IMG/VR virus record: IMGVR_UViG_3300005253_001308
Location: 1-22,018 of that record
Direction: 5' to 3' (one strand)
Length of the DNA stretch: 22,018 nucleotides
From: a virus
Part shown: positions 258-22,018 of the stretch, piece after piece
How positions within the stretch are numbered: position 1 is the stretch's first letter
Layout: every line of letters begins with the position of its first letter
Program-made: the position numbers and the translations under genes
Notes under the pieces: model-generated
What the model was told of the DNA's origin: nothing
The model's input: only the letters and a program-made list of their open reading frames with translations
Database searches by the model: none

Positions 258-1463
258 CTAGCTGCCTCTGCTGAAGCAGTCTACGACAATATCGTATTGC
301 CACTTCTTGAGGTCGACGATGTGCCGGATGCCCCAGTTGCGTTGAGCATTGCAGAACTCGCCCATTGAGGCAGGGTCGAAAGCGCCGTCGTGGCTGAAGA
401 GGCGCTCGATCTCCTTGCCCTGCGCGTGGGTAACCGGTGTCTCGTCTCTCGGAGCTTCCCGTTCCGGCGACTTCGCCTTCGCTCTCGCTTTCGGCGCCGG
501 CTCTGGCGGGGGTTCCGGTTCGGGCTCGGGTTCGGGCTGGGGTTCCGGCTCGGGGTCGGCGCCGGGAATCTCGACGTCGGTGGGCGGCTCGTCCGGCAGG
601 GCCTCATGGAACTCGCCATTCGGCGGCAGTTCCCCGGTAACACTGTCAACAGTGCTGCTCGGTGTCTCCACGTACCGCTCGTCAACCACGTCCAGCCCGG
701 GGGGAAGCGCGTCGGGGTTGAGGCGGCTGAAGGCGCTGCGCTCTGACCGGATGAAGGCCATGTTCTCGCGGGTGTTGCCCTTGTCGCCGCCTTGGAAGTG
801 CCCCTCTTTCTTCGGGTACTTGCCGTAGCCCTGTGCCTCAAGACCGGTGGCGGTTCGCAGCTTCGTGATGGCGACGATGTTCTCTTTGTCCACGGTGCCA
901 AAGATTGCCTTCTGCTCTTCGTCCGTCATAATCCGCGGGGTGTTGTCGGTGTAGCCGAAGGCGCCCCGCCGGGCCATCATCAGCCGAGTGGCGCCGATCC
1001 CCAGCACCATCGTCCAAGTGCTGCCGTACTTGATGAGGTACAGGTGCTTGAGCAGAGGGTGAAGGCCGAAGTCCTGGCAGATCTTGGCTGCCTTCCATAT
1101 CTCTATCTCAGGGGCGTCCCTCCAGATGGTCTTGAGTACCGTCGTGGCCTGCGCCTCGGTCAAGGTGCCGCTCATTGGCAACCCTTGAGCGGCCAGCGCT
1201 GTGCTAACTTCCTGTCCGTGTGCCTCACTCGTCATGTCTATCCTCCGTTGTCGTTCTTGATTGGTGGTGTCCTCGCCTTTCGGCGCAATCCATTCCTTGA
1301 CTATCGGGGCCTCGTCGTGCTGCGTGCTTGAGCAGGCGATGTACCGCTCTTTCGTAATCGGGTTAAGGAAAGCGGCAACCTTACGCCCGCACTCACCGCA
1401 GACGTTCTTGCGAACGATGGCGTCGATGTTAGCGCCGGGCATATCGGCTGGAATGATGTGCAT
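258..1463 (-). CDS. recT: RecT-family single-strand annealing protein with N-terminal zinc ribbon
   Basis: This is a 401-residue protein. Residues 110-220 carry the RecT/Bet-type core: CQDFGLHPLLKHLYLIKYG (129-147), then GIGATRLMMARRGAFGYTD (155-173). Known RecT proteins anneal single-stranded DNA in phage recombination and replication. Before the core, C22-x2-C25, C44 and H49 look like a small zinc ribbon. After it, residues 303-332 are an almost pure Pro-Glu linker turning into Ala-Lys, followed by a C-terminal helical segment (343-401). The usual RecT is about 270 aa, so both ends are extensions. The ATG at 1463 lies 2 bases after the stop of the upstream gene and has a poor ribosome site; an in-frame ATG at 1235 (Met77) has a much better one, so a 325-residue form is possible. 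The annealing call is good; the start is uncertain. Confidence 0.8.
   Translation of the reverse strand: MHIIPADMPGANIDAIVRKNVCGECGRKVAAFLNPITKERYIACSSTQHDEAPIVKEWIAPKGEDTTNQERQRRIDMTSEAHGQEVSTALAAQGLPMSGTLTEAQATTVLKTIWRDAPEIEIWKAAKICQDFGLHPLLKHLYLIKYGSTWTMVLGIGATRLMMARRGAFGYTDNTPRIMTDEEQKAIFGTVDKENIVAITKLRTATGLEAQGYGKYPKKEGHFQGGDKGNTRENMAFIRSERSAFSRLNPDALPPGLDVVDERYVETPSSTVDSVTGELPPNGEFHEALPDEPPTDVEIPGADPEPEPQPEPEPEPEPPPEPAPKARAKAKSPEREAPRDETPVTHAQGKEIERLFSHDGAFDPASMGEFCNAQRNWGIRHIVDLKKWQYDIVVDCFSRGS
492..562 (-). repeat. Pro-Glu repeat tract in the RecT linker
   Basis: Short imperfect direct repeats (units built on GGTTCGGGCTC on the plus strand) encode alternating Pro-Glu at residues ~303-325 of the RecT protein. 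It is low-complexity, acidic and probably extended. Such tracts can expand or shrink by slippage. Confidence 0.6.
1241..1246 (-). promoter_or_regulatory. Strong internal ribosome site for a short RecT form
   Basis: GGAGGA lies 5 bases before the in-frame ATG at 1235 of the RecT gene. It is better than anything before the upstream ATG at 1463. It could start a 325-residue RecT lacking the zinc ribbon, either as the true start or as a second product. Confidence 0.45.
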
Positions 1464-3322: not shown

Positions 3323-3595
3323 TCAGTGTGTTCGCTCGGCTCCGGCGGTCTCGTCCAGGTAGTGCAACTCGCTTCCTTCAATGAAGGCCGTCCCTTCCGG
3401 TCCGGTATCCCCGGTGGCGGTGCCTTCCTCGGCACGCTCATCGCCGGCTGAATCGATCACGTTGAGTTCCGTTCCCTCAGTCCACAGGTAGCCAGGGTCT
3501 TCCGATCCGGAGACCGTCAGCGGGGGATTGTATCTCCCCCGGAAGCCGTCCTCAGTGCCAAAGTAGATGAACGGGCCTTCCTGCCAGAGATAACC
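3323..3595 (-). repeat. Three C-terminal GYLW/EG repeats in the GLUG protein
   Basis: Residues ~394-484 contain three related units: GYLWQEGPFIYFG, GYLWTEGTELNVIDSAGDER and TAFIEGSELHYLDETAGAER. The core is aromatic-x-EG-x-E-L-x-(Y/V)-(L/I)-D-x-A-G-x-E-R. They may be a carbohydrate-binding or virion-attachment repeat. Confidence 0.5.
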
Positions 3596-4777
3596 GGACG
3601 GGACTAGAACTGCGAAAGCCAGGAGGGTCGGGTAGCCCGCCATCAACCAGATGGTCGAGAAATCCCAGCCGGCATCGGTGAAGGTAGCCTCGGTCTGCAT
3701 TTGGTCTGTCGTCTTGCCAGTGCCGCCGTCGCTGGTCGCTTCGCCCGAGGACTCGGTATCCCAAAAGCAGTTTGTAATGTCGTCCTTTGGGGCAAATCGG
3801 GTAGCACAGAAGCCACCTTCGCCACTACCGGAGGCCGTTACGGTTCCGGTCGAGTAACAATTATCGATGTTGCCGCCTGTGATGTCGCCGTCTGTCTCTC
3901 CTGCAAAACCACCTACATCATCAACGCCGCTGACATTACCCCGGCAATAGCAATCTTGGATTTTATGGGTAGAATCTACATACTGAAAGTAGCCTACAAA
4001 CCCACCTATGTCCTCTCCGCCTGTACTGAGAACATTCCCATCAGCGTAGGACTGAGTGATAATACCACCCGTAGCGTTCCCATCCATCTGACCAACGAAG
4101 CCACCTACAGAACCACTCGTAGTAGTGACATTGCCTGTGGCATAGCATTGGGTAATAGTGCTTGATGCACCACCACTCAGATGCCTGCCTACAAATCCAC
4201 CGACCCTTGCACTACCGCTTACTGACCCCGTAGCTGAACAACCTGTGATTGTTCCGGACGCATTGGCAAGAGCACCTATCAGCCCTCCAGTTTGCGTGCC
4301 TCCAGCTACAACAACAGAAGATGAGCAATCCGATACTGTGCTGGGAGAATCGGCCTGGTATTCTCCAAACAACCCTCCGGTGTTGTTGCCCCCAGTCACT
4401 GTACCCGAGACATGGCAGCCACTAACAATGCCGTCCCAAATGATGTACGCAAGAGCGCCAACTGCTGATGTACCGGTGATATCAACGGAAGCCAGGGTCA
4501 CGTCTTTGATATTCAGGGTCGTGTCGATCTGGTTGAAGAGCCCTGCGGTCCCGGACTTGTCGATGAACAGGCCGGTGATAGTGAAGCCCTTGCCATCGAA
4601 GTTCCCCTGAAAGTACGAGATGGGGATGAAGCCAGCACCAGCGTTCCATCCCGAAGTAGCCGAGGCATCGATGTCACCCCCCAGTTCGTAGTAAGCCGTG
4701 AGGTCGTCCTGGATAGCCTGAAGGTCGTCAACGTCCTCGATGATGAAGGGGTCGCCTACTGTGCCGCTTCCAGTCAT
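3323..4777 (-). CDS. GLUG-repeat tail protein or adhesin, 484 aa
   Basis: Residues 1-70 match the entry segment of GLUG-type surface proteins (FIIEDVDDLQAIQDDL, then FDGKGFTITGLFIDKSG). Residues ~76-325 hold about seven GLUG repeats (GGLFGEY, GGLIGAL, GGFVGRH, GGFVGQM, GGFVGYF, GGFAGET), each ending in a C-x-A/S-x-G strand, likely a beta-helix. Residues 336-383 (NCFWDTESSG, then WDFSTIWLMAGYPTLL) are the usual closing block of bacterial GLUG adhesins. The last ~90 residues carry three degenerate repeats (GYLWQEG, GYLWTEG, TAFIEG). The gene sits after the hub protein, so it is probably a receptor-binding or fibre part of the virion. Its middle is visibly more AT-rich than its neighbours, which suggests horizontal gain. 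The start is set by an overlapping TAGGTGAT ribosome site. Confidence 0.75.
   Translation of the reverse strand: MTGSGTVGDPFIIEDVDDLQAIQDDLTAYYELGGDIDASATSGWNAGAGFIPISYFQGNFDGKGFTITGLFIDKSGTAGLFNQIDTTLNIKDVTLASVDITGTSAVGALAYIIWDGIVSGCHVSGTVTGGNNTGGLFGEYQADSPSTVSDCSSSVVVAGGTQTGGLIGALANASGTITGCSATGSVSGSARVGGFVGRHLSGGASSTITQCYATGNVTTTSGSVGGFVGQMDGNATGGIITQSYADGNVLSTGGEDIGGFVGYFQYVDSTHKIQDCYCRGNVSGVDDVGGFAGETDGDITGGNIDNCYSTGTVTASGSGEGGFCATRFAPKDDITNCFWDTESSGEATSDGGTGKTTDQMQTEATFTDAGWDFSTIWLMAGYPTLLAFAVLVPSGYLWQEGPFIYFGTEDGFRGRYNPPLTVSGSEDPGYLWTEGTELNVIDSAGDERAEEGTATGDTGPEGTAFIEGSELHYLDETAGAERTH
3796..4548 (-). repeat. GLUG repeat array
   Basis: About seven tandem protein repeats of ~30-34 residues, each opening with a GG(L/F)(V/I/F)G motif and closing with a Cys-containing strand. 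They are degenerate at DNA level, so the duplication is old. Confidence 0.6.
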
Positions 4778-13432: not shown

Positions 13433-13450
13433 TCGCCTACGACTAGGCGA
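13433..13450 (-). promoter_or_regulatory. Hairpin overlapping the capsid stop codon
   Basis: TCGCCTA, a 4-base GTCG loop, and TAGGCGA form a 7-pair stem containing the capsid gene's TAG. No U-tract follows, so it is not a clear terminator. It might stabilise the 3' end of the capsid message or slow readthrough to the next gene. Confidence 0.35.
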
Positions 13451-14432
13451 CGCCGGCTCCGACAACCCCGGCGATGGCGTACTTCTTGAAGCAGGCCATG
13501 CCTGTGTACCAGATGAGCCGGTTGGCAATCGCGTTGTAGTCCTCGAGGAACACTTCCCGCTCATGCTCCATTTCGCCGGCCTGGAGTCCCGTCACCCCGC
13601 CCTCGCCGATTTGCATGGCGATGATGATGGTGCTGTCGAAAGAGCCTGCGGTGTAGGCCTTGTCATAGTCGTAGGCCGTGATGTCGAGGACACTGGACGC
13701 AGCATCGGGGTAGTTGTTCAGAATCCAGTCTGAGATCAACAGGGGGATGCCGTCGTACATGTGCATCGTCTGGCCGAAGAGTGCCGAGTCGGTGAACTGG
13801 AGACCAGACGTGCCGGCTGCCCTCGACAGCGCCGTGAGTTGGCGCCGGACCTTGCGGGAGCAAAGGATCATGTCGGGTTTGCCCGGACGGACTTGGTCGA
13901 CGAGCTGGTCCATCGCATCGAGCGTGATTACGGCACCTGAGGCGTGGTTGACAATGAGTTGGTCGTTGTTGATGCCGTCCCAATCGGTCGTGCTCTCGGT
14001 CTCCATTTCCGCGAGGATGCGGAGCAGCCCCTTGAACTCGAGGGCGTCGGTGTCGACGGAAGTCCGGCCGATGATGGCCGCTTTCTCCCACCTGTGGGCC
14101 ATTGCCTTCGCCGCCAGGCCGATGTCGACCGTCTCCGGGTCCTGGGTCAGGTTGAGCTTCTTCTGGCCTTTGTCGGTGTAGCCGGTCTGAATCAGCGTGA
14201 AGACATCGGTCGTTCTCTGCTCGTAGGTGCCGGTGTTCTCGGACAGTTGCGTGCCGACGGTCGTGAACTGCGCGCTGGGCAGGCTGACCTCGACGTTGTA
14301 CTTGAACGAGTTACCGGCGATGGGCATGAAGGGCAGGACGCCGAGCAGCGGACTTTCCATGACGATCCGGTCGACGACACCCGCCAGAAGCATATCTCTG
14401 TCGAGATATTCGTATTGCGTTAGAGTCTGCAT
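13443..14432 (-). CDS. Major capsid protein (HK97-fold type), 329 aa
   Basis: Residues 25-50 (VMESPLLGVLPFMPIAGNSF) form the usual opening of phage major capsid proteins, and the protein then reads IGRTSVDTDALEFKGLLRIL (E-loop-like) and LIVNHASGAVITLDAMDQLV. The C-terminal half contains the P-domain-like stretch KPDMILCSRKVRRQLTALSR. The length (329) and order, right after a scaffold-like gene, fit the major capsid protein. It is normally present in hundreds of copies and builds the icosahedral shell by HK97-type fold. The ribosome site AAAGGAGGG is among the strongest in the window, which matches high expression. No processing protease is visible next to it. Confidence 0.8.
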   Translation of the reverse strand: MQTLTQYEYLDRDMLLAGVVDRIVMESPLLGVLPFMPIAGNSFKYNVEVSLPSAQFTTVGTQLSENTGTYEQRTTDVFTLIQTGYTDKGQKKLNLTQDPETVDIGLAAKAMAHRWEKAAIIGRTSVDTDALEFKGLLRILAEMETESTTDWDGINNDQLIVNHASGAVITLDAMDQLVDQVRPGKPDMILCSRKVRRQLTALSRAAGTSGLQFTDSALFGQTMHMYDGIPLLISDWILNNYPDAASSVLDITAYDYDKAYTAGSFDSTIIIAMQIGEGGVTGLQAGEMEHEREVFLEDYNAIANRLIWYTGMACFKKYAIAGVVGAGVA

Positions 14433-15235: not shown

Positions 15236-18200
15236 CTACGGGCTTACTCCCTCTCCACGTAGTTTCCTGAGCGCCTCTTCGATCTTCTTCTGCCTCTCAT
15301 CCCACTCTACCTGAAAGCGCTCAAGCGTAGTCATTTCCGACCGCCGCCTCTTCTCTTCGACCGGTGTGTACTCAAACTTCAGCACCAGCCAGGCATCGAG
15401 TTCCCGATTCTCCCAGCGGAAGGCATCCTTGGCAAAGAGCGTCGGTAGCTGCAGGTAGGCCAGATATTGCGTGAAGACTTCCCGGCTCGGAACCTTGCTG
15501 AAGTCGAGCCGCTCATTCCCCTTCAGGTCGACGTAGACCTCTTCGTAGAAGCCGAGATTCTCTATGAGGAACCAATCGTCGTCATACCAAAGATCGGTGC
15601 CGACGTTGAGCTTCCAGTTCTCAGGCTTGCCCTCGCCGATGATCTTGTAGTAGCCGACGAACGCCTCGATATGCTGCTCCGGCACGAAGGCGCCGTAGGC
15701 ATTGCGCCGGACCTCAGCCAGGCCGAACTCGCTGTAGTGTCCATTCTCGTCGAATCTCATGGCCCTGACGGCTTCGGCCCGCCTGTCCGTGTCCTCGATG
15801 TAGTGCTCGGAAGTGAAGTCAGGGAAGCCCTCGAGCCGCTCAAAGGCCGGGCGGAATTCGTCGTAGATATCGTCGTACTGAACCGCCGGCACGTCTTCTG
15901 CCGCCGGGATATCGATGCCCTTGATTTCGTGCATGGCCGTGGCGAAGACTGGGTTGTCGACGAGGAACCGCTCCTGCCGCTTGCCCTTCGCTGGGAGTTC
16001 GTAATACTGCACGAAGGTCGGAATCAAGTCTTGCGGGAAGCGCTGGCCATCCGGACCAAGCAGTTCAAAGGCCTCCCGGGTCCGCCTCGCCTGCCGGTAT
16101 TCGAGGTTGCCGGCAAGGTAAACAGCCCTGTCGTCGCCTTCAACCGGGAGAGCGTTGTACGCCTCGTCCTCGGCTTTGTACTGGACATCGATACGCCAGA
16201 TTGGAATACGGTATTCGTTCACGGCCTCAAGCGCCTGATTGCCCCACAGTTCTTCGTTCCTGCGGAAATCGTCGTAGCCTTGGTGGTCAACCCGGAAGAG
16301 CATCGCCTCGGGACTCGAGGCGGCAAACTCGTCGATGGCTCTGCCGTAGTCGACGTGCCAGCCGACCAGTTCATCCGAGATCGGCGACGTCGCCGAGCCC
16401 TGTTCGATGGCCTCCACCTGGCGGAGGATATCCCGGAACTGGGTATCGCCCTCGACGGTGGTGAGTTTCACCGCCTCGGTGGCGGCCTCTCTCTCTTCCT
16501 CGTCGTCAATCTCCCGGGCTTCCTCGAGAGCGTCGTACAGTCCCCGATTGTCGACCTTCAGCGTGAGCGCCGCGTGGGGGGTTTCCGGAAGCTGCATATC
16601 CCGCCACTCGATGTACGACTCCCGCTTGGCCTCGGTCGCCTCCATGTGGTCCTCAAGCAACAAGAGTTGAGCTTCCCAGGAGGCGTGTGCGCCTTCGGCA
16701 ACAAAGTCCTCGTACTTGAAGTGGGTTTCAATCGACTCCTGCGGCGGGAGCAGGAAGATGGGGATGCCGGCGTCGGGTATGTCCAACTCCTCGACCATCC
16801 GGTTGAAGGCGTTGTAGGCCTCGAGCGAGTAAATCTTCTCTTGGCCCCACACGGCCAGCTTGGCGTTCTCTTCCGGGTGAGCCTTCAACCATTCGTGCCG
16901 GGGGTTGACCGACAATTCCGGATGGTCCTCGCGGAACTTCCGCCGGGCGGCGGGGTCGTCGATTGCGTGGTAGTCGACCAGCAGCTCCGCCTGGCGCCGC
17001 GTCAGGCCATCGAGGTCGGCGTCGGTCACAAGCCCCTGCCGCCAGGACTCGTAATAGTCGGCGAAGGTCACGCCCTCTTTGAGGTCCGGGCTGATGGTGT
17101 AGACCTTCCTGTTGAGGATGGGGTCTACCTCCGTTTCGACCTCTTCCTTCTCGAGGAAGTGGTAGGCGAGGGGGTCGGCCTCGGGGTCGGTCAACTTCCG
17201 CAAGTCTTCGGCGGTCACCGCCTCAAGCAGGCGCGTGTATTCGGTGTTGAGGTTCCCCATGTCGTAGATGTCGGGCTTCTCGAGAGAGAGTTCCGGAACG
17301 TCGTCAATCACCGTCCCGAGCAAGTCGATGGCGCCGGAGAGCCTGGTCTGCAAAACGTCCGGCACATCGCCAAAGAACAGGTCGAGGGCTCTGCGGGCAA
17401 CGTCGGTCTTCACGAAGTCAATCTCGTCGACGAGCCGACGCTTCTGAGCGCCATCCATATCCGGGTCGTTGAAGACCTCGTCCTGCTTCTTTCGGAGTTC
17501 GCTCAGTTCCCGGGCAACGGTTCGGAGATACCGGGCGGTGGCCGAGTAGGCAACATCATTCTCAGCGTCGTAGAAGAACAGCAGTTCCGGATGCGCCGCC
17601 TTGAACGTGTCAAACTTCCCTTCGTTGCCCAGCTCGAGCATTTCCTTCAGGAAGCGCTCGCCGCTTTCGTGTTCCTCGAGAACCTTGTAGAAATCGTTGA
17701 CGGTCTCTCCGGAAGAGCCGTAAGGATGCCGGACGACGAACGCCTTGAGAACCGGAATGTCGGCCAGCGTCGGGTCCGGCTCGGGAATATCGGGACTGAT
17801 GCCGGTCGCCCTGAGAATGGGCGTAAGGCTGTCGACCGCGTACCGCCCCAAGCCTCCGGTGTAGCCGAAGATCAGGTTGTCAATCTTCGCCGGCGAGAAG
17901 TTGATGATGTCGCCGAGCCACACAGCGAGAGGCGATGTCCACCGGGTGTACTGCAGCTCCGGCGGCATATCCTGTCGGCTGGGCGGAACGATGTCCCTGC
18001 CCCGGAAGAATGAGAAGTTGGTGTAGTTCTCGATGATGGGGAGCGCCGCAGTCGGGATCACGCCAGGGAAACCAGCTTCAGCAAGGTTCGCCAGCATATC
18101 CCCGAGCATATCGGGGTCGCCGGTGTCCAGGTACTCGAGGAACCGCTCTGGAGCCGACCCGAAAATGATTCCCAACTCAAAGGGCTTCGGGATTCGGATT

Positions 18201-21200
18201 ATTCCCGACCTGCCTGAGTCGCTATTGATGTACTCGGACTTCTGCTCTGCCGACCACGACTCCCACTCGGCAGGCAGGGGCTTTATGAAGACGATCCAGA
18301 AGAGGTCTTTCTGCCACTGGGCTATCTCCTTCCAGCGGGGGTCGTCGCGGTTCGCGTAGTAGAGCAGCAATGACGGCAGGGTGATTCCGGCAAAGACCTT
18401 GAGCGACGTCCGGGCGGGATGCTCTTTGAAGGATGATATCATCCGGCCCCAGCCGCGTATGTTGGCATTGAAGAAGGCGATTAGTTGATTCAGCGCCAGC
18501 GCCGTTGTGCCGCCCTGTGCGAAGTCCAAAGTGACCGAGCGGGCGGAATACCCGGCCTCAAGCGGAACGGCCCCCCTGTCGAGGCCTCGCATGAACTCAC
18601 CCATCCTTGTCGCCTTCTCGCCAAGTTCACTGAGGATCTGGAAGAGTTCCAGCGGATGCTTGATATAATCCGTGAAGCCCTTACCCTCGACAACCTGCCT
18701 GAAGGTCTTTTGGAGATACTGCCGGTCAAGCGACACCATCATCGAGTGAGCGGCACCGCTCAGGTGGAAGAGGTTATAGGCATCACCCTTCCGGAAGATC
18801 TCGGCGACGCCTTTCAGGAAGTCAATGCCGGGAAGGAAGCCGTAGTTCGAATAGGCAAACGCCGTCATTTGATCCCTGAGCGGATTCCTCACCATAAAGT
18901 CAGGGCTCAGCGTGGCGCCGGCACGCAGCCACTTAGTCGGGTAGGAGAGTATCTTCCCGAGCATCCCCAGTGTATCCCTGTTGAGGCTCAGCATGGCATC
19001 CCGAAGGTCCGGGTCTACCCGGTAGTACTGCTTCTTCCCGTTGACGAGGACGGTTACCTCGTCACCGCGGACGAAGAAGGACGGCCGGAAGATATCGACC
19101 AGTTGCTCTTCCTCGGCCTCGGTCATGCCCTCGACTTCAACGCCCAAGTCTTTCGCGCTGATGCGGGCGACCCTGGCAATCGGCGTCTTGACCCTCTCGA
19201 AGACTTCGGCAATCTCGGGATTCTGGTCGACCATGTTGGCCAAGGCTACCCCCACCATGTTCCTGTCGGCGGCGCTGATGAGGACGTAGGTGTTCTTGAC
19301 GATGCTCTCGAGCGGGTTGATAATCTCGAGTTCCGACCCCCTGATGCGCTTGATGGGCGAAGCGATGTTGGCCATCTTCTTACCGAAGAGCCCCTTCGCC
19401 TGCAACTCGTTCATCACCCGGTAGAACGGGACGTAGTCGCCGAACTCCCGGAGCTTGGTCAGGAGGTCGTCGCTGATGAGGCTCATCTCGTTGGCGTAGA
19501 CAAGGAGGCTGTCCTGGTATCTGTAGACCCGATCAGCCAAGGCCGCGAATCCGGGGTTGGCCTCTTCGAGTTCCCGGATACTGTCCCGGGCATCGACGGC
19601 ATCCATGCCGGTCTCGATGTCACGCGCCGACAACTGAACCGCCCGCCGCGCTGTGAGGTAGATCGAGAAGTCCTGCCACTTCTGCGGCTGCCGGACTTCC
19701 TTGAGGATCGTCTCGAGGGCTTCGCCGGTGAAGTCAGGCGTGGCCTTGCCGTCAGGTCCCACCTTCCAGAATGTGCGTCCGAAAGTTCCCTTCTCCAGGA
19801 ACGTCGTCGCCTTGCTGGTGACCCCCCGGAGCAACCTGGCGAGGAGATAGGGGTTCTCGGCAATCGACAGTTCGACGCCGCTCTTGCGCAGCCGGTCGGT
19901 CAGCCGCTTCATGGCGAACAGGTCGTCGACCACCTTGACGTTGAACTTGTGCCAGCCGTGCCGAATCTTCTCTTTGAGGTTGCGCTCCGGCGGGTTGAAC
20001 TGTATCTGCTGCGCAACCCGGCCGGTGGCCGTCGGCGGCGGTGGTGGAACCGCCTCGCTGTAGTTGCTGGGGATGATAGTGTCGTCAGGCGTAGTCTCCG
20101 GAAGGCGTCTGCCTTTCTCCGGGGTCGTGTCTCTCAGCCTCTTCCACTGGGCCTGAGTTTCCACAGGGAAGACTTCCTCGATGATGGTATCGGGGACGTC
20201 CCGGCCCAGCTTTATCGAATCGCCAATGTACTGCTGATAGCCGGTCTCCGGCGTTCGGCTGATGTAGAACGCAGCCATGTCTTCGGGACTGAACCCCGCC
20301 GCCTCACCCCACTCGATAGCGCTGGCGTCGATGGCTTCGCCCTTCTGCACTTCGGCTTCGGCTTCAATGAACGGCGCTGTGCCCTCTTGGAACTGCCCGG
20401 TCGCAGCAAAGGTCGTGAACTCATCCGATGTCATGGCGAACGCTGGCTTTACGTCTATCGCCGGTGGCAGTGCCTCGAGTCGTTGCTCTATCGCCAGCGC
20501 CCCACCTTCCGGGGTGACGCCGGTGGCCTCAATAACGGGCGCCGGCAGTTCCATCGGCTTGTACCAGTTGCCGGTCCCTGGGTCTTGCTGAAGACCCTGC
20601 TCCTGGCGCTGCTCGTCGGTGAGTTTGTTGTAGTCCCCCGGCGACACTCTCTGAAGGGCCGTGAAGGCACCACCGAAAGCAGCAAAGGGAAGAGCAGCAA
20701 CCATCGCCTGCAGCATGGTCTCGTCCCAGTCCTCGAAAAGTTCCTGATTCTCGTCAAAGACCTTGATTCCGGCGTTGAGAACAGCAGCTTGGGCAACTTC
20801 CTCAAGGCCTTCGATGATGTCGATGGCGGCGAAGGCCAGTAAGCCTTTCTTCGCCATGGAGGCCAAGGTGCGCTCAGAGAGTTCTTTGACAATCTCCTTG
20901 GTGAAGAGTTTGAAGGCGTTGGGGAACATCAACTTGAGCGGAACCAAGTTACCGACGGATTCTATGCCCGCCATGAGTACACCAATAGGCAAGGCCATCA
21001 GGCCAGCTTGCTGCTCGCTGGCGCCAGCGGCGAGTAACGCATCGTGGGCTTGCTGAGCCTGCGGCGGCGTAGCGACTGTCATCGCGGCCAACGTACCAAG
21101 AACCGGATTACCAGTCGTGAGAGTAACGGCAATCTGCGTTCCAAAGACGGCGATTGCGAATGGAGCAGTCGTGGCAAACTCGTACAGGATCGTTCTGAGC

Positions 21201-22018
21201 GGGTCCTCCCTGAGCCTATCGCCGATATTTCCTTTCGTCCATTCGGGTGGGACAAGTTCGGGGTGGCTAGTTATCCATTCCTCATTGAGCCTCTCATTAC
21301 GGCTATACTCACTGCGAAATTTATCCCGCTGTACGGCATTGACGGCGTTGACTCGGTTGACGTACTCATCCCCGTAAATCGAACGCTCGGCCTCAGTCAA
21401 ATCCCGGAAGAGGAAGTTCGGGAGGGCGGAAAAGAGAAACTGCTTCGCATCGTGCAGGAGATTTTGCCCACCAAGGACGAAACCATCCCACACGTCCTTG
21501 AGCCAATCCTCTTCGGGAAGCGCGGCGAATTCCTGGGTGACGACATTGTAAGTCCCAGCCCAATTCCCCTGTTCGTCGAAGGCTCTCATGCTGGCGACGT
21601 CGACGGTGAGTATCTTCTCGAAGCCGTTGACCGTCGCCGGGACGGTAACGATGCTGAAGAACTCCCCGATCTCTTGGGGACTATAGCCCATGTACTGAAG
21701 GAGCGCCTGCTTCTCGGCAGTGATGCCCTTCCACCGCATTGTCTCCACGAAGAGGGGCCAATCAGTCTCGACGAGGCCAGCCAGGTCTTCGAGGTCGTGG
21801 TCCGCGAAGACGGCGTCAATCATGGTATCGACGCGGGCTTCCTGTTCCTTGAAGTCCAGCGTCCGTAGTACGTTCTCTTCGGTGACGCCCATCATCCGGA
21901 GGATGGTCTCGCCTTGCTCCGGGCCGGCCCGTTCGAAGAGTTCGGCGACGGTGCGCTCGTAGTCGGTGGCCAGGTTATTGCGAAAGCCCTGAAGCACCGC
22001 CTCGGGAAGGTTCTCAGG
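15236..22018 (-). CDS. Giant LPD38-like polyvalent or ejection-type protein, partial (>=2260 aa)
   Basis: The frame is open through the window edge, so the N-terminus is missing. Residues ~270-450 of the visible part carry several hydrophobic helices (TTAPFAIAVFGTQIAVTLTT and EGLEEVAQAAVLNAGIKVF). A Pro-rich linker (VPPPPPTATGR) lies near residue 658. Residues ~670-1450 resemble the LPD38-type polyvalent core: a helical region, then FFNANIRGWGRMISSFKEHP near 1183 and LPSLLLYYANRDDPRWKEIA just after. The last ~700 residues hold degenerate FRxDHPE-type repeats, and the C-terminus is a basic coiled coil (ERFQVEWDERQKKIEEALRK). LPD domains are known from phage polyvalent proteins thought to be injected with DNA. 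Here it precedes scaffold and capsid genes, so a virion-internal or ejection protein is inferred. No helicase, methylase or protease motif was seen. Confidence 0.6.
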   Translation of the reverse strand, partial: PENLPEAVLQGFRNNLATDYERTVAELFERAGPEQGETILRMMGVTEENVLRTLDFKEQEARVDTMIDAVFADHDLEDLAGLVETDWPLFVETMRWKGITAEKQALLQYMGYSPQEIGEFFSIVTVPATVNGFEKILTVDVASMRAFDEQGNWAGTYNVVTQEFAALPEEDWLKDVWDGFVLGGQNLLHDAKQFLFSALPNFLFRDLTEAERSIYGDEYVNRVNAVNAVQRDKFRSEYSRNERLNEEWITSHPELVPPEWTKGNIGDRLREDPLRTILYEFATTAPFAIAVFGTQIAVTLTTGNPVLGTLAAMTVATPPQAQQAHDALLAAGASEQQAGLMALPIGVLMAGIESVGNLVPLKLMFPNAFKLFTKEIVKELSERTLASMAKKGLLAFAAIDIIEGLEEVAQAAVLNAGIKVFDENQELFEDWDETMLQAMVAALPFAAFGGAFTALQRVSPGDYNKLTDEQRQEQGLQQDPGTGNWYKPMELPAPVIEATGVTPEGGALAIEQRLEALPPAIDVKPAFAMTSDEFTTFAATGQFQEGTAPFIEAEAEVQKGEAIDASAIEWGEAAGFSPEDMAAFYISRTPETGYQQYIGDSIKLGRDVPDTIIEEVFPVETQAQWKRLRDTTPEKGRRLPETTPDDTIIPSNYSEAVPPPPPTATGRVAQQIQFNPPERNLKEKIRHGWHKFNVKVVDDLFAMKRLTDRLRKSGVELSIAENPYLLARLLRGVTSKATTFLEKGTFGRTFWKVGPDGKATPDFTGEALETILKEVRQPQKWQDFSIYLTARRAVQLSARDIETGMDAVDARDSIRELEEANPGFAALADRVYRYQDSLLVYANEMSLISDDLLTKLREFGDYVPFYRVMNELQAKGLFGKKMANIASPIKRIRGSELEIINPLESIVKNTYVLISAADRNMVGVALANMVDQNPEIAEVFERVKTPIARVARISAKDLGVEVEGMTEAEEEQLVDIFRPSFFVRGDEVTVLVNGKKQYYRVDPDLRDAMLSLNRDTLGMLGKILSYPTKWLRAGATLSPDFMVRNPLRDQMTAFAYSNYGFLPGIDFLKGVAEIFRKGDAYNLFHLSGAAHSMMVSLDRQYLQKTFRQVVEGKGFTDYIKHPLELFQILSELGEKATRMGEFMRGLDRGAVPLEAGYSARSVTLDFAQGGTTALALNQLIAFFNANIRGWGRMISSFKEHPARTSLKVFAGITLPSLLLYYANRDDPRWKEIAQWQKDLFWIVFIKPLPAEWESWSAEQKSEYINSDSGRSGIIRIPKPFELGIIFGSAPERFLEYLDTGDPDMLGDMLANLAEAGFPGVIPTAALPIIENYTNFSFFRGRDIVPPSRQDMPPELQYTRWTSPLAVWLGDIINFSPAKIDNLIFGYTGGLGRYAVDSLTPILRATGISPDIPEPDPTLADIPVLKAFVVRHPYGSSGETVNDFYKVLEEHESGERFLKEMLELGNEGKFDTFKAAHPELLFFYDAENDVAYSATARYLRTVARELSELRKKQDEVFNDPDMDGAQKRRLVDEIDFVKTDVARRALDLFFGDVPDVLQTRLSGAIDLLGTVIDDVPELSLEKPDIYDMGNLNTEYTRLLEAVTAEDLRKLTDPEADPLAYHFLEKEEVETEVDPILNRKVYTISPDLKEGVTFADYYESWRQGLVTDADLDGLTRRQAELLVDYHAIDDPAARRKFREDHPELSVNPRHEWLKAHPEENAKLAVWGQEKIYSLEAYNAFNRMVEELDIPDAGIPIFLLPPQESIETHFKYEDFVAEGAHASWEAQLLLLEDHMEATEAKRESYIEWRDMQLPETPHAALTLKVDNRGLYDALEEAREIDDEEEREAATEAVKLTTVEGDTQFRDILRQVEAIEQGSATSPISDELVGWHVDYGRAIDEFAASSPEAMLFRVDHQGYDDFRRNEELWGNQALEAVNEYRIPIWRIDVQYKAEDEAYNALPVEGDDRAVYLAGNLEYRQARRTREAFELLGPDGQRFPQDLIPTFVQYYELPAKGKRQERFLVDNPVFATAMHEIKGIDIPAAEDVPAVQYDDIYDEFRPAFERLEGFPDFTSEHYIEDTDRRAEAVRAMRFDENGHYSEFGLAEVRRNAYGAFVPEQHIEAFVGYYKIIGEGKPENWKLNVGTDLWYDDDWFLIENLGFYEEVYVDLKGNERLDFSKVPSREVFTQYLAYLQLPTLFAKDAFRWENRELDAWLVLKFEYTPVEEKRRRSEMTTLERFQVEWDERQKKIEEALRKLRGEGVSP

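Follow-up and report, generated by a model that had tools for sequence, protein, structure and literature searches.

LPD38 was described as a domain of polyvalent proteins (PMC5512222). So far it has counted as a component of anti-defence proteins whose function is unknown. For JC1 gp69, in which the Pfam LPD38 model was matched near the C-terminus (E 5.3e-34), 51 unique peptides were detected in CsCl-purified virions (PMC9144972, Table 6). Knock-down of PTXU04 gp25, a protein that ends in the LPD38 module, strongly reduced plating, and the gene was called essential in that screen (PMC11879866). In 41 related loci, including those of HTVC034P and the podovirus MW202898, we found the LPD38 gene directly after a gp15-like gene, where it closed the series of genes for tail tube and internal (ejection) proteins. 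The gene order of N4 is alike, with the virion RNA polymerase (vRNAP) last in the row. This last slot is the one held by T7 gp16 and N4 vRNAP (PMC8954989; PMC12633501), and its occupation by most LPD38 proteins suggests their function. The module formed the C-terminal end in the named phages compared and, outside the lineage reported here, in almost all IMG/VR relatives that were sampled. It was preceded by lytic transglycosylase, methylase and helicase domains in DC1, by a helicase and a methylase in Vibrio D274, and by a pyrophosphatase plus LPD3 in CF418P1. Enzyme domains at this place fit a delivered protein. In GenBank, LPD38 proteins (MW202898, OQ817832, MG592596 and other records) bear the names restriction methylase, putative portal or N-6 adenine methylase, including cases in which the LPD38 module is all that matches.

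The window, i.e. the whole stretch of DNA analysed here, is an entire viral record of 22,018 bases. Its giant gene and the genes that follow are:
15236-22018, minus strand: gene of the giant protein, 5' end cut by the contig end
14448-15200, minus strand: putative scaffold, the next gene, named from its position; homologues follow the giant gene in ten related loci
13443-14432, minus strand: major capsid protein (PHROG 212, E 2.4e-34)

The frame of the giant contained neither an upstream stop within the record nor a convincing start within the contig. Because the window is the whole record, the start of the giant is unreadable here. A frame of 2260 codons is expected by chance at the same composition with a probability of ~1e-33, and GC by codon position was 0.63/0.39/0.78. 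The frame is coding beyond doubt, and the at least 2260 residues in one frame counted by an earlier note on this DNA are thereby confirmed. Open reading frames opposite to the giant on the plus strand (848 and 785 aa) were taken as by-products of the high third-position GC. The relatives L018, L022, L030 and L004 start 273, 197, 237 and 226 residues, respectively, before the first residue of the window's giant. Judged by these sequences, ~200-275 N-terminal residues seem to be missing, and the full protein would probably comprise ~2460-2530 (about 2,500) amino acids.

The middle of the giant was assigned as follows:
17366-19960, minus strand: LPD38 module, residues 687-1551
17747-18343, minus strand: Pfam LPD38 domain (PF18857), residues 1226-1424

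The Pfam match (E 3.5e-40) reached 138.5 bits against a curated cut-off of 27 and covered the full model (1-189), so that the LPD38-like middle suspected in the earlier note is now backed by a profile. Alignment with phage relatives delimited a conserved unit, residues 687-1551, far longer than the Pfam model; the module HMM scored 1016 bits. The structure prediction proposed at that time was run for residues 675-1560 with 59 sequences and yielded a confident fold (AF2; pLDDT 85.2, pTM 0.84). Viral predicted structures in BFVD matched the module over its whole length (TM-score up to 0.84, E down to 1.5e-43); matches at TM-scores of 0.83-0.84 included PTXU04 gp25, showing a fold in common with other LPD38 proteins. 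It follows that Pfam LPD38 covers a piece of a single ~870-residue fold, which occurs in many viral proteins. The same module was present in HTVC034P gp44 (Pelagibacter), Pascal gp19 (Bacillus), PTXU04 gp25 and JC1 gp69 (Burkholderia), roughly 25-33% identical to that of the window where aligned. In these podovirus proteins the module ends the chain and the gene is the last in the ejection-protein row, whereas the module of the window's giant is internal and followed by a repeat array, and its gene lies between a putative portal gene and the scaffold gene.

Sequence matches in the PDB were not obtained for the whole giant, the module profile or the repeat profile (best E-values at least 0.57), and Foldseek against the PDB returned nothing significant for the module model or the repeat-array model. 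In a second-look PDB comparison, most rows were helical-bundle matches of middling Z. One of the rows, 9pnr, the C-terminal domain of N4 vRNAP, covered the core of the module and was not a helical-bundle match (Z 4.3, 5.8 A over 180 residues, positions 360-612 of the model). The corresponding part is:
18335-18928, minus strand: part resembling the N4 vRNAP C-terminal domain (suggestive), residues 1031-1228, just before the Pfam LPD38 domain

A profile of Schitoviridae C-termini scored 34.2 against an extended LPD38 profile, in a stretch overlapping the structural match, as compared with at most 23.2 for 40 block-shuffled versions and 21.9 for the reversed profile. The unextended LPD38 profile scored 29.1 against N4, and 23 other families from these loci scored at most 21.7 with this unextended profile. 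HH-suite gave the N4-LPD38 match a probability of only 6%, and N4 vRNAP was not retrieved when PDB sequences were searched directly by profile. We rate the resemblance of this part of the module to the C-terminal domain of N4 vRNAP as suggestive. Between N4 gp50 and the giant, ~165-180 residues match in structure and profile, and LPD38 relatives hold the slot of gp50, but the giant has no polymerase domain and the similarity is weak and partial. The N4 paper itself reported no structural relatives for the C2 domain (PMC12633501). As for T7 gp16 and P22 gp16, relatives of the giant hold the equivalent gene slot, and all of these proteins are large and helical with hydrophobic segments; however, no sequence or structural match to them was found, and the giant carries no transglycosylase domain. 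T7 gp16 was not among the second-look PDB matches listed, which does not exclude similarity.

Taken by way of its relatives (gene order, mass spectrometry of JC1, essentiality in PTXU04), a virion-internal role of the giant is well supported, and we consider it likely that the protein is an ejection (pilot) protein. Gene order, virion proteomics and the possible N4 link all point to LPD38 as a structural part of the DNA-entry machinery, which would be present in very many short-tailed phages, abundant marine ones among them.

The N-terminal half was divided as follows:
19979-22018, minus strand: N-terminal part, residues 1-680
20660-21175, minus strand: moderately hydrophobic stretch, residues 282-453

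The N-terminal part was common to L018, L022, L030 and L031 up to about residue 490, with 51% identity between L018 and the window over residues 2-490; in L032 it stands as a separate ORF. Kyte-Doolittle peaks (19-residue window) of 1.45-1.61 were located at residues 282, 338 and 435, and relatives showed comparable peaks at similar positions. The hydrophobic N-terminal section announced in the earlier note is thus present but weak; with this borderline hydrophobicity, residues 282-453 are a possible membrane-interacting segment. The earlier note also thought of a membrane channel or of DNA protection on entry; both are tentative ideas, hydrophobicity being modest and a protective enzyme absent. 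An N-terminal peptide common to the giants was searched for and not found. Neither the N-terminal half nor the repeat array showed homology to gp14/gp15-like ejection proteins, and the idea of several ejection proteins fused into one chain was unsupported.

In the residues present on the contig, no enzyme or motor was matched by Pfam, NCBIfam or PHROGs, and HExxH, Walker A and methylase motifs were absent from all 2260 residues, in agreement with the earlier reading that the giant carries no such motif. Set against the definition of polyvalent proteins (Iyer 2017; at least two domains, one of them an enzyme or effector), the giant has several modules and no enzyme in the residues seen, ~200-275 residues lying off the contig. 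These results bear on the idea that the giant is ejected to protect the DNA or disarm host defence and takes no part in DNA passage. The description of LPD38 in polyvalent proteins (PMC5512222) and the methylase and helicase domains of DarB-like relatives speak in its favour. Yet the window's giant has no recognisable enzyme, the LPD38 module persists where enzymes differ or are absent, and PTXU04 needs gp25 on laboratory hosts (PMC11879866), which makes a purely protective role quite improbable.

The C-terminal third consists of a helical array:
15239-17386, minus strand: helical repeat array, residues 1545-2260
16382-16747, minus strand: repeat unit 1, residues 1758-1879
16031-16381, minus strand: repeat unit 2, residues 1880-1996
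15692-16030, minus strand: repeat unit 3, residues 1997-2109
15362-15691, minus strand: repeat unit 4, residues 2110-2219

When the profile of the last 716 residues was compared with itself, an off-diagonal match of E 8.9e-20 appeared, which substantiates the repeat-bearing C-terminal third of the earlier reading. In pairwise comparison, neighbouring units matched at 7.6e-13, 5e-5 and 1.5e-9; the comparison of 130-240 with 214-335 was an overlap artefact and was left out of the repeat evidence. The array comprises at least four tandem units of ~115-120 residues each and was predicted by AF2 as an all-helical solenoid of short helices (pLDDT 87.3). It was kept in ~30 viral contigs, some relatives having an extra unit. 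A PDB relative was not obtained by sequence profile, Foldseek or second look, nor did any phage of the named collection match the array. The array is undescribed so far. Its variable repeat number could be read as that of a tape-measure-like protein spanning the tail, in which the repeats set the length, and a tape measure gene was not seen among the late genes available for L003, L004, L021 and other related contigs. Nevertheless, the giant gene precedes that of the capsid, short helices form a solenoid in the array rather than a long coiled coil, and the closest functional relatives come from short-tailed phages. We regard a tape measure as highly implausible.

In the window's lineage, the giant gene was kept between the scaffold and capsid genes on one side and the putative portal gene on the other, the portal being so called only for its place and size. 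An LPD38 giant at this place that ends in a repeat array is new, whereas the kind of protein is already known. A position between portal and scaffold is the usual place of genes of the MuF/SPP1 gp7 type. The giant might accordingly be a minor head protein of this kind, bound to the portal and serving assembly or DNA exit instead of acting inside the cell, since its gene occupies just that place in many loci. However, neither MuF nor another head-morphogenesis domain was matched by Pfam in the residues seen, the giant is far larger than SPP1 gp7, and its LPD38 relatives are encoded among ejection proteins and include enzymes that would be of use in the cell only. A minor head protein is considered unlikely.

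For the preferred reading, an ejection protein, the conserved slot among putative portal, scaffold and capsid genes counts in favour. Against it count the non-classic slot, the capsid protein, whose closest matches are siphophage capsid proteins (28-30% identity), and the origin of the virion evidence in other lineages. Unlike the LPD38 gene in the 41 relatives, that of the window is not the last of an ejection-protein row but precedes scaffold and capsid genes; the giant is taken to work like the ejection proteins of podoviruses, and gene order does not make it a member of them. The earlier note had proposed a virion-internal protein because of the position directly before scaffold and capsid. 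The proposal is likely right by way of the relatives. The position itself is an exception among LPD38 proteins, and the function is suggested rather by the last ejection-protein slot, which most of them hold.

In a tree of 84 LPD38 modules, the 12 members with this slot or with the array formed one clade (support 1.0); this tree did not include L041 or L039, the latter with a slot of the same kind, and L025 and L079 represent one contig. The array was present in nine of the 12 clade members, a subclade with a support of 0.47, and thus weakly supported. L035, L036 and L040 were without it, and L039 seems, by eye, to keep one vestigial unit. The array was also found around middles without detectable relation to LPD38, and the proteins concerned have much of their N-terminal half in common with the window's giant. 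Because both also surround middles other than LPD38, constant N- and C-terminal parts enclose an exchanged middle. The alternative middles (L003/L004, L023 and L031) had been expected by their look to be LPD38 homologues; profile comparison did not support this. The lineage suggests a build plan in which one part is constant and another, the delivered one, can be exchanged; phage particles that deliver proteins would naturally be designed in this way.

As an ejection protein, the giant would probably be built into the head next to the portal and would leave via the tail, either together with the DNA or ahead of it. The LPD38 module (residues 687-1551), common to the third ejection protein of podoviruses, would be the delivered, functionally central part and would then, as in other podoviruses, act at the inner membrane or within it; contact with the membrane may be made by the hydrophobic N-terminal stretch. 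The array would probably be a fitting that holds the chain in the head in the window's lineage; such an anchor would explain why the array is retained when middles are swapped. The fold, the limits of the module, the repeats, the gene order, the exchange of modules and the clade were obtained here, whereas virion presence (JC1 gp69) and essentiality (PTXU04 gp25) were reported for relatives by others; the rest of the mechanism we infer.

The phage host probably belongs to the Chloroflexota. The window's capsid protein was 71% identical to one on a contig of a Dehalococcoidia metagenome-assembled genome that also bears the array and the scaffold. In a genome scan, the repeat profile found nothing and the capsid protein one Dehalococcoidia contig; the array was present in three of 393 Dehalococcoidia genomes. 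In one of them, G383, it is part of an element integrated in a contig with host genes. Because this element sits beside host genes, the assignment to Dehalococcoidia is firmer, though it concerns relatives and not the window phage itself. This lead would add to the little-known phages of environmentally important bacteria. Some members of the Dehalococcoidia have no peptidoglycan, which would fit the missing wall-degrading domain of the giant.

The integrated element (L160; G383, contig C19, 462-17200) is 16.7 kb long, is bounded on both sides by an exact 37-bp repeat in tRNA-Thr and encodes an integrase, an AAA_25 primase-like protein and a 2207-aa giant, with host genes beyond. Its giant carries the repeat array and is 40% identical to that of L022. 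Capsid, portal and large terminase genes were not recognised in the element, which looks like a phage satellite with its own copy of the giant. A 282-aa ORF of the same locus (15373-16221, minus strand) includes a peptide, DSFREFLDRYGYPISEEG, that closely resembles the first residues of the giant, MNGDSLKDFLDKYGYPISEEGG; the peptide in common is possibly a docking signal. One might imagine that the LPD38 module forms one ancient family with the C-terminal domain of N4-type vRNAP, a part common to giant ejected proteins, which here moved beside the portal and became fused to a repeat anchor with exchanged delivered modules, and that the copy of the satellite-like element is delivered by a helper phage. 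We put this forward tentatively and rather doubt that it holds in full.

A distant LPD38 protein of ~2490 aa, 21% identical to that of the window and with the module at its C-terminal end, was encoded in another Dehalococcoidia genome (G275, contig C60, L165); no gene of the window's lineage was detected beside it. HNH endonuclease-like ORFs, probably homing endonucleases, were located around the giant and capsid genes in L003 (3650-4204 and 16319-16909), with related ORFs in L040, L041, L016 and L018. In the late gene block of the window, the minus strand encodes a protein with four GLUG motifs (3323-4777, E 2.8e-18), which is perhaps a host-binding fibre. At 258-1463, minus strand, a RecT-like annealing protein is encoded, into which an acidic, proline-rich segment is inserted.
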